From Pontibacillus sp. HMF3514 (GTDB lineage Bacteria > Bacillota > Bacilli > Bacillales > BH030062): DNA of 64,000 bases. The notes below the pieces were generated by a model. It ran no database searches. It worked only from the letters and a program-made list of their open reading frames with translations, and was not told where the DNA came from. The stretch lies in contig NZ_CP047393.1 in the NCBI RefSeq assembly GCF_009858175.1, positions 1,922,001 to 1,986,000 of the forward strand, in the 5' to 3' direction. Below, piece by piece: positions 8,302 through 38,608 of this stretch. The first letter of the stretch is position 1. Each line of letters begins with the position of its first letter. Position numbers and translations under genes: made by a program.

Positions 8302-9756
8302 ATGAAACTAAGCGATATATTAGGTGATATTGAATATGAAGTGGTTTGGGGAGATATAGAAGTACCAATTGATTGTATTTCTTATCACTCCGACAAAATG
8401 AAACAAGACTCTCTATTTGTTTGTGTAGAAGGGTCTAAGCATGACGGTCATGATTATATTGCTCAAGCAGTAATGAAAGGTTGTAGAGCCATAATCGTGG
8501 AGAAAAAAGTAGCCTTAGAGTTTATACCAGAAGGATGTACAGTCGTTCAAGTTAAGGGTACACGTAAACTTTTACCGTTCATAGCTAGCCGTTTTTATGA
8601 CAATCCTTCAGAATCTTTCAATCTAGTAGGTGTTACAGGGACAAACGGTAAAACGTCCGTCACACACATGATCTCTTTTATCCTAAGCTATGCAGGTCGA
8701 CATGTAGGGAGTATTGGCACTCTTGGAGATCAGATGAATCAGGAAGTGATTGATACCACAAGAACGACTCCTACAACGCCAGAGGCCTTTGATTTACAAC
8801 AAGTCTTTGGTCATATGAGAGATCGAGGTGTAACAGATGTGGTCATGGAAGTCTCTTCAATGGGACTTGAACTTCATCGTGTGGATAGCTGTGACTTTAC
8901 GGTTGGGATCTTTACTAATCTATCTCCTGAACATTTAGATGACCATGTTACATTCGAACGATATAAAGAAGCTAAACTAAAGCTATTTTCACTAGCTCCA
9001 CAGTCGATTATCAATGCAGATGATGCAAATGCGGAGGATTTTATTCAGGCTTCTAAAGGAGATTGTCAGACCTACGGCATTGACAACCTTGATGCTGATT
9101 GGGTTGCAAAAGACGTTTCTGTTCAAGTGAATGGTGTAACCTTTACCCTTGTTGGGCATGATGTTCATACAGAAGTCACTGTTCCTATACCAGGTCGCTT
9201 TACTGTGTACAATGCTTTAGCTGCTATAAGCACTTGCCTATCTCTTGATGTACCGCTTCAAACGATTCTTGCTGCGTTAAAAGAAATTAAAGGGCCGGAT
9301 GGTCGTTTGCAAACCATTCAATCACCTGATGGATATACCATTATGGTGGACTATGCTCATACTCCGGATGCACTTGACAATGTCTTATCAAACCTTAAAC
9401 CTTATACAGCAGGGAAACTAATTTTGGTATTCGGTTGTGGAGGCGACAGAGACGAAGCTAAACGTCCACGAATGGGAGAAATCGCAAGTAAATGGTGTGA
9501 CCACATTATTTTAACTTCAGATAATCCAAGGACTGAAGATCCGATGTCGATTATCAAAGATATTGAAAAAGGCATAGGAATGATAAAAGAATATGACATC
9601 ATCGAAGACCGTAAAAAAGCCATTCAATATGCCATGAAGAATGCTGAAAAAGAAGATATCATTCTCATCGCTGGTAAAGGGAATGAAACCTATCAAATCG
9701 TTGGGGAGGAAAAACTTCCTTTCAGTGATGTTCAAGTAGTAAAAGAAAATATGTAA
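8302..9756 (+). CDS. murE: MurE-family UDP-N-acetylmuramyl-tripeptide ligase (stand-alone)
   Basis: A 484-residue Mur ligase. The N-terminal domain is followed by the ATP P-loop GVTGTNGKTSVTHMI at about residues 110-124, the carbamylated-lysine region around residues 200-230, and the C-terminal substrate motif DNPRTEDP near residue 406. The DNPR motif is characteristic of ligases adding meso-diaminopimelate to UDP-MurNAc-Ala-Glu in the cytoplasm. Other division and cell-wall genes are absent, so this is probably a second MurE copy rather than the one in a dcw cluster; that is inference. The RBS (GGCAGGTG) is modest. A small membrane protein gene follows 24 bases later. Confidence 0.88.
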   Translation: MKLSDILGDIEYEVVWGDIEVPIDCISYHSDKMKQDSLFVCVEGSKHDGHDYIAQAVMKGCRAIIVEKKVALEFIPEGCTVVQVKGTRKLLPFIASRFYDNPSESFNLVGVTGTNGKTSVTHMISFILSYAGRHVGSIGTLGDQMNQEVIDTTRTTPTTPEAFDLQQVFGHMRDRGVTDVVMEVSSMGLELHRVDSCDFTVGIFTNLSPEHLDDHVTFERYKEAKLKLFSLAPQSIINADDANAEDFIQASKGDCQTYGIDNLDADWVAKDVSVQVNGVTFTLVGHDVHTEVTVPIPGRFTVYNALAAISTCLSLDVPLQTILAALKEIKGPDGRLQTIQSPDGYTIMVDYAHTPDALDNVLSNLKPYTAGKLILVFGCGGDRDEAKRPRMGEIASKWCDHIILTSDNPRTEDPMSIIKDIEKGIGMIKEYDIIEDRKKAIQYAMKNAEKEDIILIAGKGNETYQIVGEEKLPFSDVQVVKENM

Positions 9757-26139: not shown

Positions 26140-26466
26140 TTAAGCGATTTTCTTGCAAGCATCTGCACATTTGAAGCAAGCATCTGCACATTCTTGGCAA
26201 TGTTTATGGTCGTGCTTTTTACATTCTTCACCGCACTTTTCGCAAATCGTTGCACAAACCTGAGCCAATTCAGAAGCGAATGGTGTACCTCGAACAAGAG
26301 CTTGTTCTAGGTAAGCACAGATGTCTGCACATTCGCGATCTAATCGAATGCAGTCTCTCATAGAGTTCATATCTTCTTCCTGAAGGCATGAATCATAACA
26401 ATGGTTACATGCTTCCATACACTCATGTAATGCTTTGATTGCTTCTTGATACTTTTCATGTGACAT
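26140..26466 (-). CDS. Cys-rich four-helix-bundle copper-binding protein
   Basis: A 108-residue DUF326-type protein (YhjQ/Csp group). There are sixteen cysteines spaced as CxxxC or CxxC along four helices, for instance HECMEACNHCYDSC, RDCIRLDRECADIC and CQECADACFKCADAC. In this family the cysteines face the core and store Cu(I). No signal peptide, so cytosolic. A related gene lies at 38264 at the other end of the copper island. Its promoter region has site 1 of the TGCACA direct-repeat family. AAGGAG precedes the ATG. Confidence 0.88.
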   Translation of the reverse strand: MSHEKYQEAIKALHECMEACNHCYDSCLQEEDMNSMRDCIRLDRECADICAYLEQALVRGTPFASELAQVCATICEKCGEECKKHDHKHCQECADACFKCADACKKIA

Positions 26467-26509
26467 TAAAAAACACTCCTTAAATCTTCATAATATTATT
26501 TACATATAA

Positions 26510-26541
26510 TGTGTTACCATAAAATGTGCAGATTTTGTGCA
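26510..26541 (-). promoter_or_regulatory. copper-island direct repeat, site 1
   Basis: In gene sense TGCACAAAATCTGCACA (26541 to 26525): two perfect TGCACA half-sites with an 11-base period, upstream of the DUF326 gene. The -10 box nine bases further is poor here (AACACA, or TAACAC at eight bases). Confidence 0.6.
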
Positions 26542-26567
26542 ATTTCTTCATAAATTAGAAAAGAATG

Positions 26568-26624
26568 AATAACTCATAAAAAAGAGCTCACTGACTATCA
26601 GTGAACTCTTTTTTATGAGTTATT
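26568..26624. terminator. long hairpin terminator overlapping the stop codon
   Basis: A 57-base palindrome with 27-base arms and one mismatch: 19 paired bases from AATAACTCAT inward, one C/A mismatch, then TCACTGA / TCAGTGA around a three-base loop. It includes the stop codon of the cupredoxin lipoprotein gene (26620-26622). Six-base A and T runs within the arms make it a terminator in both directions. Confidence 0.8.
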
Positions 26625-27279
26625 CTACTACTTTTATTTTCCCTACCATTCCAGCTTCTTTATGGCCTGGTATGCTACAAAAGAATTCATACTCTCCAAC
26701 TTCTTTAGGAATGAATTTAACGCGAACCGTTTGTCCTTTTTTGGCATTCATATGAAGAGTTTGTTCACTATGGCCATGACCATCTCCATGACTATCGCCA
26801 TCTTGTTGGTCGTCACTATGACCATCATCATGACCCCCTTCAGCGTGTACTTTATTTACGCCAAAGATATTTTCAATGAAGGATACATTTTCTGGATGAT
26901 CTGGCATCTCACCTTTAAATGTAATTTTTGCTTTTAAATCACTTGAAGTTAAATCATGAAATACAGACCCATCATTCGTAAGTTCCAGTTCATATTCTTT
27001 TCCTTTTTTTAAAGTGATAGAGTCTGGATCATAGCCCATTTCAAATGCAGAAATTTCTATAACACCGTCTTTAGATTCCTTTTTTGTTTCTTTATCTTCA
27101 TTACTTTTATCAGAATCATTAGATGTAGCTTCATCTTTCTCTGCGTCCTCTTGTTTCGTTTCTTCTTTTGGTTCTTGGTTATCATTAGATGCATTGCTAT
27201 TTGAATTACTACAAGCTGTTAGCAATACGGCAAGGAGAGCAATCCCGATGATAGTTATACTTTTTTTATTTTTAAACAT
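26620..27279 (-). CDS. cupredoxin-domain lipoprotein
   Basis: A 219-residue lipoprotein: hydrophobic leader and lipobox LLTAC (cysteine near residue 23), then an acidic, low-complexity linker to about residue 70. A cupredoxin domain follows with the C-terminal copper loop FFCSIPGHKEAGM (Cys, His, Met ligands) and an upstream FHDLTS that gives the first histidine. A His/Asp-rich insert (GGHDDGHSDDQQDG, DSHGDGHGHS) near residues 145-170 may bind extra metal. It is anchored on the outer face of the membrane and probably carries or buffers copper. No TGCACA repeat is seen in its own upstream region. GGGAGG precedes the ATG. Confidence 0.85.
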   Translation of the reverse strand: MFKNKKSITIIGIALLAVLLTACSNSNSNASNDNQEPKEETKQEDAEKDEATSNDSDKSNEDKETKKESKDGVIEISAFEMGYDPDSITLKKGKEYELELTNDGSVFHDLTSSDLKAKITFKGEMPDHPENVSFIENIFGVNKVHAEGGHDDGHSDDQQDGDSHGDGHGHSEQTLHMNAKKGQTVRVKFIPKEVGEYEFFCSIPGHKEAGMVGKIKVVE

Positions 27280-27479
27280 GCTGTAAATCCTCCCATTATT
27301 CTAAAACTATTCTCACGATAACATAGAAAGCATATTTTTGTCTCGCTAAAGTGATATAATGAGAAAGAACTTTCATCTTACTTTTCATATAATTTGAAAT
27401 CCGGACACATTATCTAAGCAGATAAAATAACATCTTCATAGTTACATTTTATTTTATGTAACTAGTTTGTTTTTCTGAA

Positions 27480-28088
27480 TTAGGGTTTTAATATGAGCTT
27501 TCTCATAATCGTTCCAATTAACTGTTCATTTTCCTCAATTACAAGACCTGCTTTATGAATGTTATCGAGTGTTTTTCGGTTAATATTGGCTCCCCATAAC
27601 CTAACTATGAAAGGATTTAACAAATCCATGGTTTTTCCTATGAATGGATTTTCACTCCTCATGTGTTCAAGCATCACAATTCTACCATTCGGCTTACAAA
27701 CACGACGCATTTCTTTTAACCCTTTCAGAGGATCAGGAACAGAACAGTAAACACAAGTTGAAACGATAAAGTCAAAGGTATCATCATCAAACGCTAGTTG
27801 TTGTGCATCCATTTCAAGCAAATCTACTGATGCACGTTGACCCACTTTATTGGCTTTCTCCCTTGCTTTCTTCAACATTCCTTCACTAAAATCTATCCCT
27901 GTTACATTTACTTGTTCAGGATAAAAAGGTAGATTAGCTCCTGTACCAACACCCACTTCGAGTACTTCACCTTCCAAATTGTTTAATAAATCTTCTCTCC
28001 ACTCTTTTTTAATCATTTTGTCCATGACATCATAAATAGCGGAGATGCGATTGTATCTTTTCTTAATGACATTCTGTTTTTCTTTCAT
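27480..28088 (-). CDS. class I SAM-dependent methyltransferase (PmtA/UbiE-like)
   Basis: A 202-residue methyltransferase. SAM motif I is EVLEVGVGTGANLPFYP near residue 45, then VTGIDFSEGMLKKA, LLEMDAQQLAFDDDTFD near residue 95 and LKEMRRVCKPNGRIVMLEH. The overall pattern resembles phosphatidylethanolamine N-methyltransferases and their relatives. AGGAGG precedes the ATG. It sits inside the copper island, but no copper-type repeat is found directly upstream in its orientation, so its link to copper is uncertain. Confidence 0.82.
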   Translation of the reverse strand: MKEKQNVIKKRYNRISAIYDVMDKMIKKEWREDLLNNLEGEVLEVGVGTGANLPFYPEQVNVTGIDFSEGMLKKAREKANKVGQRASVDLLEMDAQQLAFDDDTFDFIVSTCVYCSVPDPLKGLKEMRRVCKPNGRIVMLEHMRSENPFIGKTMDLLNPFIVRLWGANINRKTLDNIHKAGLVIEENEQLIGTIMRKLILKP

Positions 28089-28207
28089 AAATTGACCTCC
28101 TACAGGAGAACTCCATTTCCTCCAATGATAAATATAAAAATGAAAACATCCAAGAATAAGTCTTCAGTTTAAGTTAAATATAGTTTTCATTAAATCTTCC
28201 TACATTT

Positions 28208-28239
28208 TGCACTGAATCTTGATATTTCACGGATATGAT
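28208..28239 (+). promoter_or_regulatory. copper-island direct repeat, site 2, with -10 box
   Basis: TGCACTGAATCTTGATA (28208-28224), then nine bases and TATGAT (28234-28239), in front of the Met/His-rich secreted peptide gene. It is the only one of the seven sites serving a plus-strand gene, and it is turned accordingly. Confidence 0.7.
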
Positions 28240-28269
28240 AGAAGTATAAAAAATAAAGGAGTGGTTCAT

Positions 28270-28587
28270 ATGAAAAAAATTATTGTAAGCTCATTAGCAT
28301 TAGGATTAATTATCTCTAATGGAGTTACTGGTGTATATGCACAAAGTCTTAGTAACAATGCAGACAACATGTCACCTCAAACCCAGATGAGGATGGATTC
28401 AATGCAGACACATCATCAAATAATGCAAGACATCAATGGACCTATTAATTATGGTCAAGTCAAAAAAATTATGAATCAAATCCACCCTCAGATAACGAAT
28501 AAAGAAATAAAGGACATGTACAATTCTATGCATGGAACAAATGGCTCTGAGCAGAGTGCAAACTTTACTCATATGCATAAAAAATAA
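28270..28587 (+). CDS. small secreted Met/His-rich protein
   Basis: A 105-residue exported protein with no family I recognise. A signal peptide (MKKIIVSSLALGLIISNG, cleavage likely after VYA near residue 24) leads to a mature part rich in Met, His, Asn and Gln, with DNMSPQTQMRMDSMQTHHQI and a tail ending FTHMHKK. Met/His clusters of this sort bind copper outside the cell. The gene is among copper genes, and site 2 of the shared repeat lies in its promoter. The ATG at 28270 follows AAAGGAG by eight bases; the frame is open further upstream, but that start has no RBS. Confidence 0.72.
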   Translation: MKKIIVSSLALGLIISNGVTGVYAQSLSNNADNMSPQTQMRMDSMQTHHQIMQDINGPINYGQVKKIMNQIHPQITNKEIKDMYNSMHGTNGSEQSANFTHMHKK

Positions 28588-28700
28588 CATTATGAGTAAC
28601 AGTATAGTTACAGCATCATTCTGCTACGTTATCCAGCCAGTTGGTGGCATGTGAAGGAAGCTATAATGGCAGAAATGTAACAACAAGCATAGTTATCGTA

Positions 28701-28728
28701 AAAGGGCTCCTGGTTAGGAGCTCTTTTT
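28701..28728. terminator. bidirectional terminator
   Basis: AAAGGGCTCCT / AGGAGCTCTTTTT, with a short loop, between the secreted peptide gene and the end of the convergent membrane-protein gene. Confidence 0.75.
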
Positions 28729-29467
28729 ATAGGTAAGTCCAGTATGTAAAAGTATCTAGTATCCCTAATACAATCATTAATAGACCTGCTCCCCGTTGTA
28801 CATACAAGCCCACTTTCCTCCCGTTCTTTTTCATAAAACTACCATCTACTTCAAAATACCAAATTAAAAATACTACAATAATTAGGGGAAGAGATGTTCC
28901 AATTGCGAATATACTTGGTAAAATCGCTCCATATGGTGTAGAAAGAACTATGGGCATTAGGGATACAAAAAATAAAATAAACATCGTTGGACAGAATCCT
29001 AGAGAGAAGCTTACTCCTATAAAAAATGCTCCTAATTTCCCCTTCTTTAATCGGTCTGGAATCTTTCCCAATGTAAGCGTCCACCTCATCTTCCAAACTC
29101 CTAGCATAAATAAGCCAATGAATACTAACATGGGACCAATTAATTTACGAACCCATGGAAAGAAATAAGTAGTTAAAGTCCCTTGAAATTCTTGACCTAA
29201 AATCCACACAATTAAACCCAATCCGGAAAATACAACAATTTTTCCAAGAATAAAAAAAAGAACCTCTTTCCATGCTACTTTCTCTTGCAATGATTGATTC
29301 CCATAGATTGTGATCGCTCCTAAGTTCCCTGTAAATTGACATGGCGCTACAGCTCCAACTAACCCTAAAATCAATGCAGAAAGAAAAGGGATTCCTTCTG
29401 AACCATAAGCAATTTCAATTAAGGGTTCACTTATATATCCACTTATTCTACTGAAAAATTCATACAT
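28727..29467 (-). CDS. DsbD/CcdA-like (sulfite exporter TauE-type) membrane protein
   Basis: A 246-residue protein with about six membrane helices. GLVGAVAPCQFTGN near residue 40 and SLGFCPTMFILF near residue 155 each carry a helix cysteine next to proline, the pattern of DsbD/CcdA thiol transporters; database names for this group vary (cytochrome c biogenesis, TauE/SafE). It may move electrons across the membrane to keep copper-site thiols reduced. Site 3 of the shared direct repeat is in its promoter, tying it to the copper set. Confidence 0.75.
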   Translation of the reverse strand: MYEFFSRISGYISEPLIEIAYGSEGIPFLSALILGLVGAVAPCQFTGNLGAITIYGNQSLQEKVAWKEVLFFILGKIVVFSGLGLIVWILGQEFQGTLTTYFFPWVRKLIGPMLVFIGLFMLGVWKMRWTLTLGKIPDRLKKGKLGAFFIGVSFSLGFCPTMFILFFVSLMPIVLSTPYGAILPSIFAIGTSLPLIIVVFLIWYFEVDGSFMKKNGRKVGLYVQRGAGLLMIVLGILDTFTYWTYL

Positions 29468-29507
29468 AGCTCTGATCCTTTCATTTTGATAATGTAAGTA
29501 CTCTTTT

Positions 29508-29539
29508 ACTATACATTATTCTTATGAAGATTTTGTGCA
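29508..29539 (-). promoter_or_regulatory. copper-island direct repeat, site 3, with -10 box
   Basis: In gene sense TGCACAAAATCTTCATA (29539 to 29523), nine bases, then TATAGT (29513 to 29508), upstream of the DsbD/CcdA-like gene. Confidence 0.7.
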
Positions 29540-29560
29540 ATTTACATATAAAACACTAAA

Positions 29561-29599
29561 AACCCCTCGTATGTGTTTAAAAAACACATACGAGGGGTT
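29561..29599 (-). terminator. strong terminator after the multicopper oxidase gene
   Basis: An 18-base perfect stem AACCCCTCGTATGTGTTT with its complement, loop of three bases, five bases after the multicopper oxidase stop at 29604. On the minus strand it is followed by TTTTTAG. Confidence 0.85.
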
Positions 29600-29603
29600 A
29601 GCC

Positions 29604-31090
29604 TTAAAAAGGACTATAAACTCCTTTATAGTTTACGAGGGTTATCATGCCTCTATCAGCATGGTTATTATCATGACAATGGAAGAGCCATTCTCCTTGA
29701 TTATCTGCTTTAAAATAAATTTCGTATGTTTCGCCTGGTTTCACATTTATTAGATCCTTAACTACAGGAGTTGTTTTATTCCCATTTTTTTGACAACTTG
29801 AAAACGATGACCATGCAAATGCATAGGATGATTTAACATACCTTGGTTGGTTAAACGCACTTTAACCAGATCTCCTTTAGCAACATCGATTGGATTGGTA
29901 TCAGGAAATGTATCATTATTAATCTGAAAAACCATTCCTTCTCCCATATTCATTCCCATATCTAATTTCATTTCATAAGAGACATCGACATTTTTAGGTG
30001 TTTGATTGAATATCAAGTTTTCACTTGAAAAAGTAGTCCCATTAACTGTATTACTAGAAGCTTGAGTTTCATGAGAGTTTTGATTTTTAGAATTACTTTG
30101 TCCAGTTTGAAATGGAATAGATATAGATTGTTCAGATTCATCGCTTGTCATATCTCGAATAAGAGAAGTTGTTTGGTTGGTTTGAACGTATTCAACATCG
30201 ATTCTTTCTCCCGGGGCAATTTCTAACAGATTACTAGATTGATTGGTTTGAGTTTGAACACTTTCTCCATCAACTGCTAATACCTTCATACTTTCTTTTG
30301 GAAATCGTATTGTGTGAACCTGGTATCCCGCATTAACAAATCTCAGCCTTGCTTTTTCCCCTTTTTTAAGTTGGATCGGTTGGATTGAATCTCCATTTTT
30401 TCCGTTTATCGTGAAGGTGTCATACATTGCCTCTGTATCTGCCTCTCCATTGCCTGACATCCCTCCCATCATCATACTTCTCATATTTGAAAAGCTTTGT
30501 TTTTCTTGGTTCACTGCCCACTCATCAAGAATAAGAGTATGGTCTTTTGTGTACGTCTTTTCTTTTGACTCAACGATAAAGGCACCATATAATCCTTTAT
30601 CTACTTGCTTGGAGCTATGTTGATGTGAGTGATACCAATAAGTCCCTGCGTCATCAGCAGAAAATTCATAAGTAAAACTTTCTCCAGGTTGTACAGCTTC
30701 TTGCGTTACATCAGGAACGCCATCCATTTTGTTTGGAAGTATAACACCATGCCAATGTATGGTTACTGGGACATCTAGCTTATTCTTCAAATGTATTTTT
30801 ACAAAGTCCCCTTCTTGAACACGAATCTCTTTGCCAGGTACGGTTCCATTATAAGTCCAGGCATTTGTTGATGTTTGGTTGTTGATTTTCCACTCAGTCT
30901 GTTTTGCTGTAACATTAAAGGTTTTTACTGGCTGATTTTCTTTAGCTTCTACATTGAAATCTAAAATGCTCTTTCCTTTATTTTGTTTGAGAGCTTGTTT
31001 TGCACTATCTGAAGGCCAGAAATTTAGTACCCCCCAAGTGCTTACAAAACCTATGCCAATTATAAATAGAATAATTGATAGCTTTCTCAT
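29604..31090 (-). pseudogene. multicopper oxidase, interrupted by a one-base frameshift
   Basis: The main frame (31090 to 29762) gives 442 residues: a membrane leader, then three cupredoxin domains with the copper motifs TIHWHGV and YWYHSHQ and, near the end, HPMHLHGHRF. It then stops early. In the -1 frame the sequence continues for about 62 residues with GNKTTPVVKDLINVKPGETY and WLFHCHDNNHADRGMI, the last copper motif, to a stop at 29604. The break lies at seven A (29785-29791 on the plus strand); an eighth A would restore about 495 residues. It may be a real mutation, a sequencing error, or slippage at A AAA AAA. Family: CotA/CueO-like, exported copper oxidase. Site 4 is in its promoter. 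Confidence 0.82.
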
Positions 31091-31125
31091 TATCGTTTCC
31101 CCTCACCATTTTCATTTACGTCTAT

Positions 31126-31157
31126 TCTATATCCACTAGCTGTGCAATTCGTGTGCA
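31126..31157 (-). promoter_or_regulatory. copper-island direct repeat, site 4, with -10 box
   Basis: In gene sense TGCACACGAATTGCACA (31157 to 31141), nine bases, then TATAGA (31131 to 31126), upstream of the multicopper oxidase gene. Confidence 0.72.
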
Positions 31158-31165
31158 AAAAAATG

Positions 31166-31210
31166 CAAAATCTCCAAGGAAGTTTATGATTCCCTGGAGA
31201 TTTATTTTAA
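31166..31210 (-). terminator. terminator of the copper ATPase gene
   Basis: AAATCTCCA / TGGAGATTT with an extra inner pairing (AGGAA with TTCCC) and T-rich sequence on the minus-strand side, 15 bases after the ATPase stop. Confidence 0.7.
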
Positions 31211-31217
31211 TCAACAT

Positions 31218-33227
31218 CTAGGCTTTTAACAATTTTGCATTAATGGCAACAACTACCGTACTTAAACTCATTAAAATCGCTCCAACAGCAGGGCTTAGAA
31301 TAATACCAATTGGTGCTAGTATTCCCGCTGCTAATGGAATAGCAACAATATTGTATCCAGCTGCCCACCAAAGGTTTTGAATCATCTTGTTATACGTTTT
31401 CTTCGATAATCTCATAATCTGTACTACATCTTTAGGGTTACTCTTCACTAATACAATATCAGCAGATTCCATAGCTACGTCTGTTCCGGTTCCGATCGCA
31501 ATTCCTAGATCAGCTGTAGCAAGTGCTGGAGCATCATTTACACCATCACCAGTCATCGCTACATTCCAACCTTTTTCTTTAATTTTCTTTACTTGATCTG
31601 CTTTTTCATCTGGAAGGACTTCAGCATATACCTCATCGATTCCTAACTGTTCTGCTACCCAGTTCGCCACTTTCTTACTATCACCTGTAAGCATGATGGA
31701 ATGGATGCCTCTTTCCTTTAAAGAGGAAATGGCTTCTTTAGCATCTTCTCTTACCATATCAGCTAACGCGATCATGCCAATTAGTTCTTGTTCCACTAAT
31801 ACGAATACAACAGTTTTGCCTTCTTCAGATAGACTGTTGTATTTCTCTTGATTAAATGAATAATTTTGCTCGTTCATAAAGCCAGGGCTAACGACTTTTA
31901 CTTCTTTACCGTTTACTGTTCCACGGAGTCCTTTACCTGTCATAGATTCGAACTCATCATTATCTTCTAATGAAAGATTATCTTCTTCAGCTTTATTAAG
32001 AATCCCTTGTGCTAAAGGGTGTTCAGATTTTTGTTCCAGTGACGCTGCCCATTTCAGGACGTCCTGTTCTTGGTGGTTTTCTTCAGGAATAATGTTTGTA
32101 ACTCCAAATTCTCCTTTGGTTAGTGTCCCGGTCTTATCAAAAACGACTGCATTTAGTTGTCGAGCTCCTTCAAAGTTCGCTCTATTACGAATAAGTAGCC
32201 CATTTTTAGCAGATAGAGACGTTGAAACGGCTACTACAAGAGGAGCTGCAAGACCTAATGCGTGTGGACATGTGATTACCATAACCGTTACCATACGTTC
32301 CATAGCAACATCAATAGGGTGTCCCAGTGCTAGCCATATAATAAAGGTAAGAATACCGCTTCCTAAGGCTAGATAAAATAACCACTTAGCTGCTCGGTTT
32401 GATATATCTTGTGTTTTGGATTTAGATTCCTGAGCTTCCTTAACTAAACCAATTACTTGTGAAAGGTACGTATCATCTCCAGTTTTTTGAACGGAGATCG
32501 TGATAGAACCTTCTTGGTTTACGGAGCCACCTATTGCTTCATCACCCTCACCTTTTTCTACAGGCACAGATTCACCGGTTAACATTGACTCATCTATTGT
32601 TGTTTTCCCATCAATAATATCTCCGTCAACAGGAACTTTTTCACCTGGCTTAACAAGAATGTGGTCACCTTCTGTAAGGTCTGATACAGCAACATCTTCT
32701 ACATTTCCATCTTTATCAACTTTGTGAGCTTCATTAGGCATTAGCTTAACTAATTCTTCAAGTGCATTTGATGCACCCATCACGGACTTCATTTCAATCC
32801 AGTGACCGAGTAACATAATGTCAACTAATGTTGCGAGTTCCCAGAAAAAGTTGCGGCCTTGAAGTCCAAAGACAACCATTGAACTATAAACATATGCGAC
32901 CACAATGGCTAATCCAATGAGCGTCATCATACCCGGATTTTTTTGTTTTAGCTCATCTTTTGCTCCAGATAAGAAAGGTAATCCACCATAGAAAAATACG
33001 AATGAAGCTAGTGCAAATAATACATATTTATCAAATGGAAAGGTCCATTCAAATCCAAGGAAATCTTGAATCATAGGAGATAATATTAAAATCGGAATGG
33101 TAGCAACTAATGAGATATAAAAACGTTTTTTGAAATCTTCTACCATGTCACCATGATCATGGTTATGATGGTCATGGCCACTTTCATGATGTTCGTGTTC
33201 ATGTTCATGGTTATGTTCATGAGCCAT
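31218..33227 (-). CDS. copB: CopB-type copper-translocating P-type ATPase
   Basis: A 669-residue P1B ATPase. The N terminus is a His-rich metal-binding tail (residues 4-27, alternating His with Glu, Asp) in place of CxxC domains. Phosphatase loop TGES at 218-221, the membrane metal motif CPH at 320-322 (TCPHALG), the phosphorylation site DKTGTLT from D364, and TGDGVNDAPAL near residue 570 are all intact. CPH rather than CPC marks the CopB subgroup, which exports copper. GAGGAGG precedes the ATG. A SHOCT-protein gene lies 27 bases upstream, and the two-component genes lie beyond it. Confidence 0.93.
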   Translation of the reverse strand: MAHEHNHEHEHEHHESGHDHHNHDHGDMVEDFKKRFYISLVATIPILILSPMIQDFLGFEWTFPFDKYVLFALASFVFFYGGLPFLSGAKDELKQKNPGMMTLIGLAIVVAYVYSSMVVFGLQGRNFFWELATLVDIMLLGHWIEMKSVMGASNALEELVKLMPNEAHKVDKDGNVEDVAVSDLTEGDHILVKPGEKVPVDGDIIDGKTTIDESMLTGESVPVEKGEGDEAIGGSVNQEGSITISVQKTGDDTYLSQVIGLVKEAQESKSKTQDISNRAAKWLFYLALGSGILTFIIWLALGHPIDVAMERMVTVMVITCPHALGLAAPLVVAVSTSLSAKNGLLIRNRANFEGARQLNAVVFDKTGTLTKGEFGVTNIIPEENHQEQDVLKWAASLEQKSEHPLAQGILNKAEEDNLSLEDNDEFESMTGKGLRGTVNGKEVKVVSPGFMNEQNYSFNQEKYNSLSEEGKTVVFVLVEQELIGMIALADMVREDAKEAISSLKERGIHSIMLTGDSKKVANWVAEQLGIDEVYAEVLPDEKADQVKKIKEKGWNVAMTGDGVNDAPALATADLGIAIGTGTDVAMESADIVLVKSNPKDVVQIMRLSKKTYNKMIQNLWWAAGYNIVAIPLAAGILAPIGIILSPAVGAILMSLSTVVVAINAKLLKA

Positions 33228-33254
33228 AAGCGTTACCTCCTCTATTTGTTCAAT

Positions 33255-33485
33255 TTATTTTTCATCTAATTTTTGTTTAAGTCGATCGTATTCTGCTTCA
33301 GTGATTTCTCCTCTAGCTAATCGTTCCTTTAGAGTATCAAGGGAGTTATTGTTCTGATTGTTTTGACCATTATTATTGGATTGTTTGTTAATGAATATAG
33401 CTACGATAATTATCAGGATGCCAATGATTAGGATCCATGTGAATCCCATACCCCCGAAGAATCCCATTCCATTTCCATTCATCAT
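33255..33485 (-). CDS. SHOCT-domain small membrane protein
   Basis: A 76-residue protein: a Met/Gly-rich start (MMNGNGMGFFGGMG), one membrane helix (about residues 17-33), an Asn/Gln linker, and a C-terminal SHOCT motif (LDTLKERLARGEITEAEYDRLKQKL, given as LKERLARGEI and EAEYDRLKQKL). Such proteins often accompany copper ATPases; the role is unknown. AGGAGGTGAG precedes the two Met codons. It is directly upstream of the CopB-type gene, with which it is likely cotranscribed. Confidence 0.85.
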   Translation of the reverse strand: MMNGNGMGFFGGMGFTWILIIGILIIIVAIFINKQSNNNGQNNQNNNSLDTLKERLARGEITEAEYDRLKQKLDEK

Positions 33486-33511
33486 TTAACTCACCTCCTA
33501 CATATACCATT

Positions 33512-33525
33512 TACCTGTATGGGTA
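33512..33525. promoter_or_regulatory. possible CsoR-type operator
   Basis: TACCTGTATGGGTA, a TACC/GGTA inverted repeat 27 bases before the SHOCT/CopB start. It resembles the TACCC-GGGTA operators of Gram-positive copper repressor CsoR. No csoR gene is in the window, so this is only suggestive. The seven-site TGCACA repeat is absent here. Confidence 0.35.
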
Positions 33526-33568
33526 TTTTAAAAACATATCTACCTTAATCGTTTACTTTTTTGAATTA

Positions 33569-34246
33569 TTACTCTCCATTCATCCATTTATAGCCCACTC
33601 CCCAGACAGTTTTAAAAAAATGGTCAATAGGAAAACCACTCTGTCGGACTTTTTCTCTTATGTTTCTTACATGAGAATCTACTGTTCGTCCATCAATATC
33701 CGAATTAAACCCCCATACAAGATCGATAAGCTGTTCACGGCTGAAAACGCGTTCTGGATTTTTCATAAGATGACCAAGCATTGTAAATTCTTTAGGAGTG
33801 AGTGTAATGTTTTGGTTCCTATAATGGAGTTTATACTTTTCCCCATCCCATACAAGTTCATTAATTTCGATGATATTTTGGTTTGTGGTTCTTCTGAGCA
33901 ATGCCTGAACTCTTGCCAATAATTCATCCTCATCAAATGGTTTTGTTATATAATCATCCGCTCCTATTTTCAACCCTCTAACAATATCTGTCTTTTGATC
34001 ACGAGCAGTAACCATGATTATAGGAACCTCAGAAATTTCTCTGATCTCCTTACACGTTTTCCAACCATCAAATTGAGGCATCATGATATCAAGTAAAATA
34101 AGGTCAAAAGATTCTTCCTCAACGAGTTTAATGGCTTCAGTTCCTGAGATTGCTTTTTTACAATTATAGCCCTGTGGGGAAAGATAAAGATCGAGTAAAT
34201 CAAGCATACGTTGTTCATCATCTACTAATAAAATGTTATTGGTCAT
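33569..34246 (-). CDS. OmpR-family response regulator (probable copper response)
   Basis: A 225-residue response regulator. The receiver domain has the acidic pocket VDDE (8-11), phospho-acceptor D53 in DLILLDIMMP, and K about 103 in YITKPFDEDEL. The C-terminal winged helix has LTPKEFTMLGHLMKNPERVFSREQL (shown as LTPKEFTMLGHL and VFSREQL) and GRTVDSHVRNIREKV. It overlaps the kinase gene by four bases, so the two are coupled. It is set between copper genes. OmpR-type proteins bind direct repeats of about 11 bases, and seven such repeats lie in this island, including one before its own operon; I infer that it is their activator. Confidence 0.9.
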   Translation of the reverse strand: MTNNILLVDDEQRMLDLLDLYLSPQGYNCKKAISGTEAIKLVEEESFDLILLDIMMPQFDGWKTCKEIREISEVPIIMVTARDQKTDIVRGLKIGADDYITKPFDEDELLARVQALLRRTTNQNIIEINELVWDGEKYKLHYRNQNITLTPKEFTMLGHLMKNPERVFSREQLIDLVWGFNSDIDGRTVDSHVRNIREKVRQSGFPIDHFFKTVWGVGYKWMNGE

Positions 34247-35625
34247 ATATCTCCATCCTCTTGTAATTCTATCGATATGGTAGTCCCTTTTTCTAACTCA
34301 CTTTCCGCGTATACACGCCCCCCATGCTTTTCAATGATTTCTTTTACAATAGATAGTCCTAATCCTGAACCTCCTAGGTTTCTAGAACGTGACTTATCCA
34401 CTCTATAAAGTCGTTCAAAAATAAAAGGAAGCTCTTCTTTTGGTATGCCATTTCCATCATCAGATATTGAAATTGTAATGAAACCTGGTTTTGAGCGCTC
34501 AACATTTAAACGAATATCCGATAACTTTCCAGAATGGTTAATCGCATTATCAATTAAGTTAATGAGTACTTGATGAAACCTTTCTGGATCAACATCCACC
34601 TGCAGATCAGGATCGCAAGATATGTGGAAGGATATCTGTTTATCTTTAAATAGAGGAGTCATCTTTTCGTTTACTTTTTGTACAATTTCACATATATAAA
34701 CGTTTTCTTTATATATAACAAATTGGTTTTGGTCCATTTTAGCTAATTCAAAAAGATTTTTTATAAGAAGTGTTAAGTGCTCTGATTCTTCTTTTAATAT
34801 ACGCAAATACCTCTCTCGTTCTTGATCTGATAAAGTCTCTCTACTGGCGATATTTGCATAGCCTTTTATATACGTAATAGGTGTTCGTAATTCGTGTGAA
34901 ATACTAGCCAAAAACTCTTTTCTTTCCTCTTTCAGCCGCTCTAGATCCTCAGCTAAAATAACGATGGAGTTGGCAAGCTGACCTAACTCATCACTTCTTT
35001 TATACCCTAAGGAGACTTTCATGTTTCCTTTCATTAGCTCCTCTGTAGCTCTTTTCATACGTACTAGTGGCCTGGTTATAAAGTGACTTAATATGAAAAT
35101 AGCGAATATAGTGAGAAATAATGTGATGATACCAGCTAGCATAAACTGATTAGAGAGTTCTCTAATAACTCCTTTAATAATGGCTGTATTTGCGAACATA
35201 TACACAAAGCCTTCAATGTTTCCTTCAACACGGATTGGACTTACAGTTGCTACATAATCATTTTCTTCCCATTCATTATGAAGGATTAACCCTTGATGAC
35301 TTGTTTCAGAAATATTGCTATGAATCATAGAATCCAATGACTCATTTACAGGTTCTGATTTAGCCAAAACATTTTTTTTAGTATCTGTTATGACCACAAT
35401 GGTCTTAGCCTCTGACTCCATTAAAGCTACATGATTTAAAGTACTTTTATCAAACCGCTTCTCAAGAACATCTCTGTGACTATTTCCACGTGATAGCAGA
35501 TTATCCATTACTTCTTCTATTCGATTATCGGCCAAGCTCTTATATAAAAAGAAAAATAGGATGGCTTCTACAATAATCATAAATATGAAAATAAATATTC
35601 CTAATTTAAATGAAAGTTTGTTCAT
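34243..35625 (-). CDS. sensor histidine kinase (probable copper sensor)
   Basis: A 460-residue membrane kinase. Helix one is about residues 7-28, then an extracytoplasmic sensor of about 125 residues, helix two near 155-178, a HAMP region, HisKA with phospho-His in FLASISHELRTPITY near residue 240, and HATPase boxes VLINLIDNAINHSG, DDGNGIP and GGSGLGLSIVKEI. GAGGG eight bases before the ATG at 35625 is preferred to the in-frame ATG at 35640. It is first in the operon, ahead of the response regulator, which reverses the common order. Site 5 of the repeat lies in its promoter, predicting autoregulation. Confidence 0.9.
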   Translation of the reverse strand: MNKLSFKLGIFIFIFMIIVEAILFFFLYKSLADNRIEEVMDNLLSRGNSHRDVLEKRFDKSTLNHVALMESEAKTIVVITDTKKNVLAKSEPVNESLDSMIHSNISETSHQGLILHNEWEENDYVATVSPIRVEGNIEGFVYMFANTAIIKGVIRELSNQFMLAGIITLFLTIFAIFILSHFITRPLVRMKRATEELMKGNMKVSLGYKRSDELGQLANSIVILAEDLERLKEERKEFLASISHELRTPITYIKGYANIASRETLSDQERERYLRILKEESEHLTLLIKNLFELAKMDQNQFVIYKENVYICEIVQKVNEKMTPLFKDKQISFHISCDPDLQVDVDPERFHQVLINLIDNAINHSGKLSDIRLNVERSKPGFITISISDDGNGIPKEELPFIFERLYRVDKSRSRNLGGSGLGLSIVKEIIEKHGGRVYAESELEKGTTISIELQEDGDI

Positions 35626-35713
35626 TTCTATTTCCCTCATTAATAGTGATTTTGATTATTTTCAAGTCTATTCCTAGTAGATAAAATGAACAAAGACTTT
35701 GCTTATATTTTTC

Positions 35714-35745
35714 ATCCTACCCATCCATTTTGCAGATTCTATGCA
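35714..35745 (-). promoter_or_regulatory. copper-island direct repeat, site 5, with -10 box
   Basis: In gene sense TGCATAGAATCTGCAAA (35745 to 35729), nine bases, then TAGGAT (35719 to 35714), upstream of the two-component operon. Confidence 0.7.
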
Positions 35746-35773
35746 GAAAGGTATAAACTTTATTAAATAAACA

Positions 35774-35801
35774 AAAATCTGCTTAGTACTAAGCAGATTT
35801 T
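35774..35801 (-). terminator. terminator of the BNR lipoprotein gene
   Basis: A perfect 28-base palindrome, AAAATCTGCTTAGT and its complement, nine bases after the stop; usable in both directions. Confidence 0.8.
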
Positions 35802-35810
35802 ATAGATCTT

Positions 35811-36716
35811 TTAGTCAACTTTCCCTGATGTGACAATTTGACTCCATTTTTCACCCTTATTTTTGGTAATATAAGCATGATTTTGATATGTGTAAATGAC
35901 CATTTCATCAGATTCCTGCTTTTTATCAAAATAAGCTACAGCATCTTGCCCTAACTTAGGAAGGGATATCTGTTCTTTTGTTTCTTCTTCTAAGTCATAT
36001 GTCGTAAGCTGAGGTTTTGAATAAAATGTTCCATACCAAAGTTTATTCTCACTGAAATATACTGCTGTTCCATTTACGTTTTCTTCTAAAGGTAAAAATT
36101 TCTCTCCTCCGTCTTCAGATAAATAAACTCCATTTTTAGTGGTTACAGCAATCATTTTTTCGTTAGTTGGATGAACGGCTATGGCTACAATTTCCCCATT
36201 TATCCCTTCTCCTTTAACACGTTCCCAAGAGTCCCCTTCGTCTAATGTCTTATGTAATCCAGAACTTAATTGGGTATTACCATGACCATTATAGACGTAT
36301 ATGGCATGGTTGATATCACCTACGCCCATCGAATGAAAGTCGAAGTCTCCTTCGAAAGCTACATCGGATAAGTTTTTCCCATCATCGGAACTTTTTTGAA
36401 TCCCTAAAGGGTTAGGAAGTTTGGATCCTTTACCAGGATGCCCACTTGTATAAAAGCCCTTATCGACTACATTAAATCCCATATAATCATTGTTTTGATC
36501 TGTTGTAGCATACCATGTCTTCTCTTTATAAAACTTTAAACCATCGTGGGATGCGAAAGCGATTCCTTTCTCCCCCATGTAACCTATTCCATGAACATGT
36601 TCTAATTTTCCATCAAATTCTGTTAAAAACTCTTGGTCACTTTGATTAGATTGACCACATGCCCCTAATAGTAAGACGCTTAATAGAACACTAAGTAAAG
36701 TTATTTTTTGTCGCAT
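35811..36716 (-). CDS. BNR/Asp-box lipoprotein (F510_1955-type)
   Basis: A 301-residue lipoprotein: leader and lipobox LLGAC (cysteine near residue 20), then a beta-propeller-like body with BNR/Asp-box repeats such as KSSDDGKNL, KTLDEGDSW, LSEDGGEKF and TKNKGEKW. The early HVHGIGY and ASHDGL motifs fit the family named after F510_1955, often called glycosylhydrolase although no catalytic residues are evident. It faces outward from the membrane. Site 6 of the copper repeat lies in its promoter with a perfect TATAAT, so it is likely copper-induced. Confidence 0.8.
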   Translation of the reverse strand: MRQKITLLSVLLSVLLLGACGQSNQSDQEFLTEFDGKLEHVHGIGYMGEKGIAFASHDGLKFYKEKTWYATTDQNNDYMGFNVVDKGFYTSGHPGKGSKLPNPLGIQKSSDDGKNLSDVAFEGDFDFHSMGVGDINHAIYVYNGHGNTQLSSGLHKTLDEGDSWERVKGEGINGEIVAIAVHPTNEKMIAVTTKNGVYLSEDGGEKFLPLEENVNGTAVYFSENKLWYGTFYSKPQLTTYDLEEETKEQISLPKLGQDAVAYFDKKQESDEMVIYTYQNHAYITKNKGEKWSQIVTSGKVD

Positions 36717-36755
36717 TCTTATTCTTCCCTTCTTATTTCATTAAATGGTACCTGA

Positions 36756-36787
36756 ATTATACAAATCAATTATCAAAAAACTGTGCA
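36756..36787 (-). promoter_or_regulatory. copper-island direct repeat, site 6, with -10 box
   Basis: In gene sense TGCACAGTTTTTTGATA (36787 to 36771), nine bases, then TATAAT (36761 to 36756), upstream of the BNR lipoprotein gene. Confidence 0.7.
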
Positions 36788-36829
36788 AGAAACTTGTCTA
36801 ATTTGTGTACATTTTCATGATTAACAACA

Positions 36830-37537
36830 TCAGAAACCTGTAAACCCTCCAAAAAATTGATTGGATAGGAAAGACGTTAGTTTAGTCATCCATCCGAAGA
36901 ATAAAAAAATCCCCATTACAATCATGGTAAATCCTCCGATTTTTATGAATAATCGGTTGTACCTTTTTATCCATTTCATACGCCCAATAAAGAACGACAT
37001 AATAAAAAATGGAATAGAAAAACCAAGAATATATGCCATCATATAGAACATAGCACTTTGTGGATTAGATACTCCCATTGCAATAACAGCTGCAAGAATT
37101 GGACCTGTACAAGGTGTCCATCCAGCCGCGAAACCTAATCCTATTAGGCTTGAACCCATATACCCTTGTGGACGATTCTTAAATTTGATGCTACGATCCT
37201 TCATAAGAAATTCTGGCCTAAAAAACCCAATAACCACAAATCCCATAAAGGTTATAAAAATAGCTCCTAATTGTCTTATTAATTCATCGTTTGTTATAAA
37301 GAATTCACCTACAAATGATGTCGAAAAACCAAGTGCTATAAAAACAACAGAAAAACCTACCAAGAAAAACAAAGTGTGAAGTAAGGCTCGTTTTTGCGTC
37401 AATCCCTGCCCATGCTTTAATTCATCTACTGACATACCAGTTATATAGGAGAGGAAAGCAGGATAAAGGGGAAGGCAGCAAGGAGATAAAAAAGAGAGCA
37501 ATCCCGCTCCAAAAGCTAATAGTAAAGTTACTTCCAT
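36830..37537 (-). CDS. ccdA: CcdA-family cytochrome c biogenesis protein
   Basis: A 235-residue protein with six membrane helices. [19 protein letters not shown] near residue 17 and [15 protein letters not shown] near residue 138 carry the two helix cysteines that pass electrons from cytosolic thioredoxin to the outer face of the membrane. It lies one base downstream of the thioredoxin-like gene on the same strand, so the pair form a membrane reductase module. As part of the copper island it probably serves thiols needed for copper proteins, or haem c maturation. Confidence 0.92.
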
Positions 37538-37538
37538 T

Positions 37539-38093
37539 TTAATTGTTCTCCTTTTTATATTCTTCAGGTTGGATTTGCAACATAAACCTTCGAATATCTT
37601 GTTCCGTTAAACCAGCAGTTACACGTTTTTCAACGATTCCTTCTTTATTTATAAGGAACGTTACGGGAATAGGTCCAACCCCATATGCATCTAGAACGTC
37701 CTTGTTTTGATCCATCGGTATAGGAAAGGTTAAGCCATACTCTTCTACAAAACCTTGAACTGTAACTCTAGGTTCTCCTACATCTACAGCTAATACTTTA
37801 ACTCCTTTGTCTTTAAAATGTTGATATTGGTTTTCCATAAAAGGCATTTCTTTTTTACATGGAGGACAGTAAGTTGCCCAAAAATTTAAAAATACACCCT
37901 TACCTTGGTAATCACTTAATTGAACTTTTTCACCCGAGAGTGTTTTTAACACAAAATCTGGTGCTTTGTCACCAGCTTTAATGAAGTCCTGATCCTCCTC
38001 TGTAAAACTTTGATAGAGCATATACACGATAGCTGCTACAAACAATGTTAAAATTCCTAAACGAAAAAAGAGTCTCTTCTTTGTTTTTTTCAT
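37539..38093 (-). CDS. membrane-anchored thiol-disulfide oxidoreductase (ResA/TlpA-like)
   Basis: A 184-residue protein: N-terminal membrane anchor (about residues 8-27), then a TlpA/AhpC-type thioredoxin fold with [12 protein letters not shown] near residue 75 (active CxxC), [14 protein letters not shown] before it and the cis-proline region [12 protein letters not shown] near residue 150. It reduces disulfides outside the membrane with electrons from the CcdA protein encoded next. Site 7 of the copper repeat lies in its promoter. The N-terminal cytoplasmic tail KKTKKRLF is basic, as expected. Confidence 0.9.
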
Positions 38094-38129
38094 AGTTTAT
38101 CCTCCTATTTACGATGATGGTTCATATAA

Positions 38130-38161
38130 TTTTTATCAAACAAATGTCCAAAATCAGTGCA
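38130..38161 (-). promoter_or_regulatory. copper-island direct repeat, site 7, with -10 box
   Basis: In gene sense TGCACTGATTTTGGACA (38161 to 38145), nine bases, then TAAAAA (38135 to 38130), upstream of the thioredoxin-like/ccdA pair and between it and the divergent DUF326 gene. Confidence 0.62.
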
Positions 38162-38263: not shown

Positions 38264-38608
38264 ATGGGAGTATTATCAACATCACCAACTAACATGGATG
38301 CTTGTATAGAAGAGTGTCTTAAATGTGTGCGTGCTTGTGAGGAATGTTACTACGCATGTATGAATGAATCTGATGTGCAAAATCGACTACATTGCATTAG
38401 CACCCTTAATGATTGTGCTGAAATTTGTGCTCAAGCTACACAATATATGTCACGAAATAGCCAGTTTGCTAAGCAATTATGTACGCTATGTGCGACCATT
38501 TGTGAGCAATGTGCAACTGAATGTGAGAAGTTCCAGGACAAACATTGTCAGGAATGCGCTCAGATTTGTCGTACTTGTGCTGATGAATGTAGAAAGATGT
38601 CTGCTTAA
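38264..38608 (+). CDS. Cys-rich four-helix-bundle copper-binding protein
   Basis: A 114-residue DUF326-type protein with nineteen cysteines in CxxxC and CxxC spacing (ACIEECLKCVRACEEC, CTLCATICEQCATEC, CQECAQICRTCADEC). It is similar to the 108-residue protein at 26140, so the island is bracketed by two paralogues. It should store Cu(I) in the cytosol; no signal peptide is seen. GGAGGG precedes the ATG by seven bases. Its upstream region has at best a degenerate repeat (TGCATA then AAAGGC, near 38197). Confidence 0.87.
   Translation: MGVLSTSPTNMDACIEECLKCVRACEECYYACMNESDVQNRLHCISTLNDCAEICAQATQYMSRNSQFAKQLCTLCATICEQCATECEKFQDKHCQECAQICRTCADECRKMSA

Follow-up and report, generated by a model that had tools for sequence, protein, structure and literature searches.

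Which protein controls the promoters of a copper island in Pontibacillus sp. HMF3514, a halophilic relative of Bacillus, and through which DNA sequence? The island lies at 26.1-38.6 kb of the stretch analyzed here (the window: 64 kb of the 3.98-Mb single-contig genome, positions 1,922,001 to 1,986,000 of NZ_CP047393.1). Its gene families were assigned by profile scans and by reading of the sequence. In an original prediction made from the DNA alone, seven island promoters were said to carry TGCACA-N5-TGCACA "or a close variant," and the only OmpR-type regulator of the window was proposed to read them. The seven 17-mers lie at the coordinates and on the strands that had been given, as follows.

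26525-26541, minus strand: operator 1, TGCACA-AAATC-TGCACA, before a DUF326 gene
28208-28224, plus strand: operator 2, TGCACT-GAATC-TTGATA, with -10 TATGAT (28234-28239), before a Met/His-rich peptide gene
29523-29539, minus strand: operator 3, TGCACA-AAATC-TTCATA, with -10 TATAGT (29513-29508), before a DsbD_2 gene
31141-31157, minus strand: operator 4, TGCACA-CGAAT-TGCACA, with -10 TATAGA (31131-31126), before a multicopper oxidase gene
35729-35745, minus strand: operator 5, TGCATA-GAATC-TGCAAA, with -10 TAGGAT (35719-35714), before the kinase-regulator genes
36771-36787, minus strand: operator 6, TGCACA-GTTTT-TTGATA, with -10 TATAAT (36761-36756), before an F510_1955 lipoprotein gene
38145-38161, minus strand: operator 7, TGCACT-GATTT-TGGACA, with -10 TAAAAA (38135-38130), before resA-like and ccdA-like genes

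The common orientation that had been claimed was found in all cases: each site points to its gene, with a distance of 53-120 bases between the first base of the site and the start codon. The repeat is exact in two sites only (operators 1 and 4), and "close variant" proved a loose term for the others, which have 2, 2, 2, 3, and 4 mismatches (the 4 was determined by hand). In six of the seven, the hexamers listed above begin nine bases past the second half-site, exactly as predicted.

Very probably, the seven sites serve as operators for the two-component system encoded in the island itself, which would be a copper-responsive system of the LcoRS type. We read the repeat as an LcoR-type operator used by the island's own regulator because of the motif recovered from relatives, the matrix ranks of the sites, the copper genes that follow such sites in relatives, the position of the regulator in the LcoR clade, and a site on plasmid pNZ712. 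The two genes of the system are the following.

33569-34246, minus strand: OmpR/PhoB-type response regulator of the LcoR clade, recognition helix region RTVDSHVRNIREK
34243-35640, minus strand: sensor histidine kinase with a predicted extracytoplasmic PAS/Cache-like domain

The regulator matched PF00072 (receiver) and PF00486 (winged-helix Trans_reg_C) over their cut-offs, and it is 95% identical to that of the congeneric relative G002. No second regulator of this kind was detected at an E value of ≤1e-4 by BLASTP against window open reading frames of at least 80 amino acids, in line with the claim of a single one. As had also been claimed, operator 5 lies ahead of the regulator's own operon, and we propose from this arrangement that the kinase-regulator genes would be autoregulated.

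For comparison, we used stretches, mostly of 15-20 kb, around homologues of the regulator; a set of 43 loci was obtained from 55 by removing 12 that shared sequence with a kept locus. A de novo search by expectation-maximization (1,500 starts) was run on 89 upstream regions of homologues from 28 out-of-genus loci, with no window sequence included. Its top motif, mTsCAnAnTTTCTkCAnA (log-likelihood, 186.6), was the same 11-bp direct repeat as in the window sites; the best motif from an equal number of unrelated upstream regions had a log-likelihood of only 102.9 (1,000 starts). This repeat and the domains of the regulator agree with the OmpR-type operator shape that had been predicted. The fuller consensus was about CTGCAYA-N4-CTGCAYA, and the consensus model (R1) used 50 of the 56 sites scoring at least 20.5, six having been dropped by eye. 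Of the 89 upstream regions, the 40 best were checked for TANNNT at offsets 2 to 19 past the second half-site: 19 of them had it at offset nine, and no other offset had it in more than 2. When only the half-site columns of the window matrix were applied to 35 out-of-genus clade loci, TANNNT was found at offset nine in 25 of 48 matches, the next offset having 7. A matrix from 70 sites (36 out-of-genus loci) placed the named sites at ranks 1-7 of the window, with scores from 28.8, obtained for operator 5, down to 14.8, and the next match had 12.7. At a threshold of 14.5, all seven window matches of this matrix were named sites, against a mean of 0.41 in 100 dinucleotide shuffles and none with the reversed matrix. 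The window matrix (threshold of 16) gave 20 matches in 361 kb of the loci of other families, against a mean of 1.1 in 10 shuffles and 2 with the reversed matrix. The de novo motif, the matrix, and the offset counts thus all describe a direct-repeat operator with a period of about 11 bp and a fixed distance to the -10 box. It is hardly credible that the sites arose by chance or are inherited promoter DNA that no regulator reads: only two of the seven copies show the exact repeat, and the low GC content makes AT-rich matches common, but the out-of-genus matrix, the shuffles, the reversed-matrix controls, the fixed -10 offset, and the presence of the same site on Lactobacillales plasmids all speak against it.

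The original prediction had the sites replace the -35 box, as for an activator, and the fixed -10 distance in the window and in relatives is consistent with such a role. Operator 1 is the exception, with AACACA at the usual -10 offset. Further downstream, the DUF326 promoter has two more elements.

26514-26519, minus strand: third half-site of operator 1, TGGTAA, 11 bp past the second half-site
26499-26504, minus strand: proposed DUF326 -10 box, TGTAAA, nine bases past the third half-site

A third half-site was also present in six congeneric DUF326 promoters, two of them near-copies; it reads TGGGCA in all but one, which has TGGCAA. Nine bases past it, the window and five of these six promoters have TGTAAA, and the sixth has TGTAAG. 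The more distant DUF326 promoters (L105, L109, and L273) had no TGTAAA at that place. The simplest reading is that the DUF326 promoter uses the third half-site, so that the same spacing rule would apply one repeat further downstream, with a predicted and weak -10 box.

Next, the link between the operator and the regulator was considered at the level of phylogeny. In a tree of 65 regulators, 43, including the window protein, formed one clade (support, 100/100), and a window-matrix site was found before a gene in 34 of these 43 loci. Without the window and seven congeners, a site was present in 26 of 35 clade loci versus 9 of 22 loci of other regulators (P = 0.013 in a one-sided Fisher test), a comparison in which the clade group is favored by its greater total length (624 kb versus 338 kb). 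None of the six loci with ResD-type regulators, which are part of the 22, had a site, and the reversed matrix gave a site in 2 of the 35 clade loci and in none of the 22 others. A 50% cut-off for regulator identity gave no clean split of the genomes. We used the tree instead because a sister group of regulators (L271, L273-L278, and L281), with an identity of 42-46%, is accompanied by sites whose half-sites are of the TTCATA type; several of its members are beside F510_1955 genes. Possibly, specificity has shifted in this group within a single lineage of regulators. In two genomes of the group, G027 and G060, a clade regulator is present as well (L271 and L274 are in such genomes), and the sister-group sites there may belong to the latter.

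Regulators of the clade were also found on plasmids of Lactococcus, Latilactobacillus, Planococcus, Priestia, and Bacillus methanolicus. LcoR itself is 57% identical to the window regulator and fell in the same clade (24 of 34 rows; support, 100/97), as did row L088, which had been labeled "other" beforehand. In a report on this system, lcoRS is said to be involved in the regulation of lcoABC, and the strain bearing pNZ712 is resistant to copper (PMC5152845). In a 14.7-kb stretch of pNZ712, the top match of both matrices (28.3 and 24.0) was TGCACA-AGTTC-TGCAAA-N9-TATAAT, at position 9086 of locus L297. This site, the only strong one of the stretch, sits between lcoS (end, 9054) and the next gene (9238). 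That gene is lgt-like and carries no lcoA name in the annotation; taken as lcoA from the gene order, it would have a promoter that is reportedly under LcoRS control and that shares the window operator. On a Latilactobacillus sakei plasmid, a site (27.7) occupied the corresponding position ahead of lgt, and strong sites were present in the other scanned plasmid stretches as well. The window system thus resembles LcoRS-lcoABC of the Lactococcus lactis plasmids pND306, pNZ712, and pSK11P in the helix region of the regulator (RTVDSHIRNLREK in LcoR), in the operator and -10 spacing found before the gene after lcoS, and in having a multicopper oxidase nearby. It differs in gene order, which is kinase-regulator in the window and regulator-kinase in Lactococcus, and in its targets, since lcoABC (annotated as lgt-like, DUF2933, and further genes) is the reported target of LcoRS, whereas the seven window sites precede other genes.

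What does the system respond to? Out-of-genus sites precede the window families and, in addition, genes for DUF1541 (CopL/YdhK-like) proteins, CueP, a CsoR-family repressor, a small cupredoxin, and SHOCT peptides, so that many copper genes are among the site-bearing genes of relatives. Two further site-preceded proteins, of 404 and 373 amino acids (L077:7050-8264 and L112:11592-12713), have a weak match to PF04122 (CWB2) and no obvious copper role; they form a candidate new family of the copper regulon. In the kinase, His50, His65, and Met69 (numbered from the MNKLSF start) are conserved in homologues. His50 and His65 were each found in 28 of the 29 kinases with the N-terminal stretch, which eight of the 37 lack owing to the start codon chosen by the script; Met69 was found in 30 of 37, and all three residues were invariant in a 13-row alignment. 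LcoS has the same His/His/Met spacing by inspection. These residues may bind copper. An AlphaFold model of the sensor domain (pLDDT, 85.6) was nearest to the WalK sensor and other PAS/Cache domains at 12-17% identity, with a resemblance to citrate sensors too, and the structure search revealed no copper site in it. One could propose that the operator does belong to the clade regulator while its main signal is something other than copper, for example silver, thiol stress, or envelope stress, and that the response extends well beyond the copper genes. Several thiol-redox targets (ResA-, CcdA-, and DsbD-like) and a sensor fold that names no ligand are compatible with this view, which we nevertheless regard as unlikely. 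Many of the targets across genera are copper proteins, namely, CueP, CsoR, DUF326, multicopper oxidase, cupredoxin, and the CopL-like DUF1541; the LcoRS report cited above ties that system to copper resistance; and the conserved His/His/Met set would suit Cu(I) or Ag(I).

The preferred reading, operators of the island's own LcoRS-type system, was then weighed against scans of the whole genome. A pattern built from six island sites, TGCAYWNNWWYTKSAHA-N9-TANNNW, matched those six by construction and had no match outside the island in the 3.98 Mb. With one mismatch allowed, ten further matches appeared, the seventh site and nine elsewhere; since the reversed pattern also gave nine, no regulon member is evident outside the island at this stringency. 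A genome-wide count of the bare repeat at up to two mismatches (209 matches versus 183 reversed) was not used as evidence, as the exact sites of the island were not among the matches listed.

Several observations count against the preferred reading. The bare TGCACA-N5-TGCACA, at up to three mismatches, gave 57 matches in the window versus 48.1 ± 7.3 expected, no enrichment, and sharper tests of the motif were therefore needed; the signal resides in the shared subconsensus, the position, and the -10 box. A 4-mer dyad test (101 upstream regions versus 415) gave only single half-site fragments and no repeat of two half-sites; wrongly placed start codons and the mixing of gene sets may have weakened its signal. 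A sequence-only covariance model had 40 matches in the genome, of which 5 were in the island (ranks 1, 2, 4, 7, and 33), in a scan weakened by partial local matches and by the scoring of 150 of 4313 candidates. Some strong sites in relatives precede genes with no evident copper link, such as asparagine-synthase-like and Mur-ligase-like genes (names given from reading of the sequence); these sites may be chance or may belong to the divergent neighbor gene. For homologues of the F510_1955 and DsbD2 proteins, sites were found in 15 of 37 regulator-plus versus 2 of 16 regulator-minus cases with the window matrix at a threshold of 14 (Mann-Whitney P = 0.086) and in 19 of 37 versus 6 of 16 with the out-of-genus matrix (P = 0.087). 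Moreover, regulators outside the clade are also near sites (9 of 22 loci), and 9 of 43 clade loci lack a window-matrix site. Among these nine are all five loci of one branch (L110, L111, L114, L116, and L118, from Neobacillus, Mesobacillus, and two Bacillus species), which had no recognizable site within about 8 kb and for which no partner kinase was detected.

The last figures would also be expected if the repeat were read by a different regulator of the OmpR type (WalR, PhoP, or a paralogue encoded elsewhere, for instance) and the island regulator had other targets. The WalR box, given as TGTWAH-N5-TGTWAH in one study (PMC4168254), has the same shape and a similar TG start. Its hexamer nevertheless differs from the window half-site at positions 3 and 5, and the exact pattern of site and -10 box occurs nowhere else in the genome, unlike what would be expected of a housekeeping regulon. 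In addition, a site precedes the kinase-regulator genes, the only strong site of the LcoR stretch is directly behind lcoS, and the ResD-type loci have none. We thus consider this alternative quite improbable, more so than a signal other than copper.

Starting from the motif, its spacing, orientation, and conservation, the gene content, and the clade, all of them features of the sequence, we infer how binding, phosphorylation, copper as the signal, and activation would be connected. The kinase would sense extracytoplasmic copper through its PAS/Cache-like domain, with the conserved His and Met residues, and would phosphorylate the response regulator. A regulator dimer would bind head-to-tail on the two half-sites, which are separated by one turn of the helix, and would thus occupy the region from about -38 to -22. 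It would substitute for the missing -35 box and bring sigma-A RNA polymerase to the -10 box nine bases downstream. Seven transcripts, including that of the system's own operon, would thereby be switched on for extracytoplasmic copper defense by oxidation, binding, export, and thiol repair. The DUF326 promoter would follow the same rule one repeat downstream, with three half-sites. Activation appears to be the likeliest mode of control because the operator is at the place of the -35 box at a fixed distance from the -10 box and Pho boxes are alike in this respect.

The island encodes, besides the kinase and the response regulator, two DUF326 proteins, a cupredoxin, a Met/His-rich peptide, a DsbD_2 protein, a multicopper oxidase, a CopB-type ATPase, a 76-amino-acid SHOCT-like peptide, an F510_1955 lipoprotein, and CcdA-like and ResA-like proteins. 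The genes linked to the operators are as follows.

26140-26466, minus strand: DUF326 protein, with a weak likeness to the Csp1 copper storage model, under its cut-off
28261-28587, plus strand: Met/His-rich secreted peptide, no family found
28727-29467, minus strand: DsbD_2 membrane protein (profile scan)
29762-31090, minus strand: multicopper oxidase, with a frame that stops ahead of the C-terminal copper-ligand block
31218-33227, minus strand: copper P-type ATPase with a His-rich N terminus and a TCPHAL motif, which we take to be of the CopB type from general knowledge rather than a profile scan
33255-33485, minus strand: 76-amino-acid Met-rich membrane peptide with a SHOCT-like tail, between the regulator and CopB (SHOCT label taken from a similar protein that was scanned)
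35811-36716, minus strand: F510_1955 family (BNR-type) lipoprotein (profile scan)
36830-37537, minus strand: CcdA/DsbD transmembrane protein (profile scan)
37539-38093, minus strand: ResA-like thiol-disulfide oxidoreductase (profile scan)

Sites precede all of the families that had been named as the regulon, a list from which CopB and the SHOCT-like peptide were left out. Both probably share operator 5 with the kinase-regulator genes because they lie behind the regulator in the same direction. Upstream of the SHOCT-copB genes, at about 33504-33526 on the minus strand, ATACCCATACAGGTAAATGGTAT is ATACC/GGTAT-like and recalls CsoR operators; that transcript may therefore be under a second control. 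Two CsoR-family genes are present elsewhere in the genome. None of the seven top matches belongs to the cupredoxin lipoprotein gene (26620-27279, minus strand) or to the second DUF326 gene (38264-38608, plus strand). In the multicopper oxidase gene, the C-terminal block of relatives, WLFHCHDNNHADRGM, sits in another frame within about 230 bases downstream, so that the early end of the frame is either a frameshift or a sequence error.

How does this operator compare with those already described? The prediction that none has this sequence held among the papers listed in searches for the sequence itself and for Gram-positive copper two-component operators, which stopped short of the original LcoRS papers; the shape of the operator is known. 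CopRS of Corynebacterium glutamicum reportedly binds a direct repeat with an 11-bp period, apparently the sole site of that genome, and controls a multicopper oxidase and CopB (PMC3140484). The two systems thus have in common an OmpR-type copper regulator, the repeat period, and these two targets, but the C. glutamicum operator, TGAAGATTT-N2-TGAAGATTT, serves one divergent region, has another half-site, and belongs to another phylum. This regulon was rejected, as its half-site is absent from all seven sites.

PhoB stands in for the -35 box. Pho boxes consist of two direct repeat units of 11 nucleotides that are occupied in tandem and lie at a strictly kept distance from the core promoter (PMC4415409 and PMC10294691); the repeat units and the fixed distance are shared with the window sites. 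The Pho regulon was rejected on its half-site, CTGTCAT in Escherichia coli versus about CTGCAYA here, and on its phosphate genes versus the many copper targets. WalR/VicR targets are cell-wall genes; this regulon, alike in its hexamer-N5-hexamer direct repeat, was rejected on the two half-site positions mentioned above. The CsoR operators of Staphylococcus copA and copX, described as ATACC-N4-GGGGGTAC and GTGGGTAT in one study (PMC5947656), are bound by a repressor that gives copper-responsive control of copper exporters and CopL, a likeness in function. An operator of this ATACC...GGGTAT type was rejected because it is not a direct repeat, whereas each of the seven sites is one, and of a different sequence. 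PhoP- and CopY-type operators were set aside as well, on grounds of sequence or symmetry.

Operator and regulator are thus both of a known kind, and it is the binding code and the regulon that are new here. A broader generalization, plausible and still rather doubtful, is that one copper operator code (CTGCAYA repeated every 11 bp, with the -10 box nine bases past the last copy) is common to regulators of the LcoR clade, whether on chromosomes of Bacillales or on plasmids of Lactobacillales. An added half-site would shift the start by one repeat, as seems to be the case in the DUF326 promoters, and the half-site count would tune the output at an unchanged spacing. If true, the code would give copper roles to the orphan families F510_1955, SHOCT peptides, PF04122-like proteins, and Met/His peptides. 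For a family of copper two-component systems present in many of the examined Bacillales genomes and on plasmids of lactic acid bacteria, it would provide a binding code that can be put to the test; for the described member, LcoRS, no operator was reported among the papers listed. Regulon members could be predicted with it in these genomes and plasmids, and unnamed families beside the sites would gain a likely role in copper handling. For the cell, an outward-looking sensor would complement the cytoplasmic sensing of copper by CsoR.

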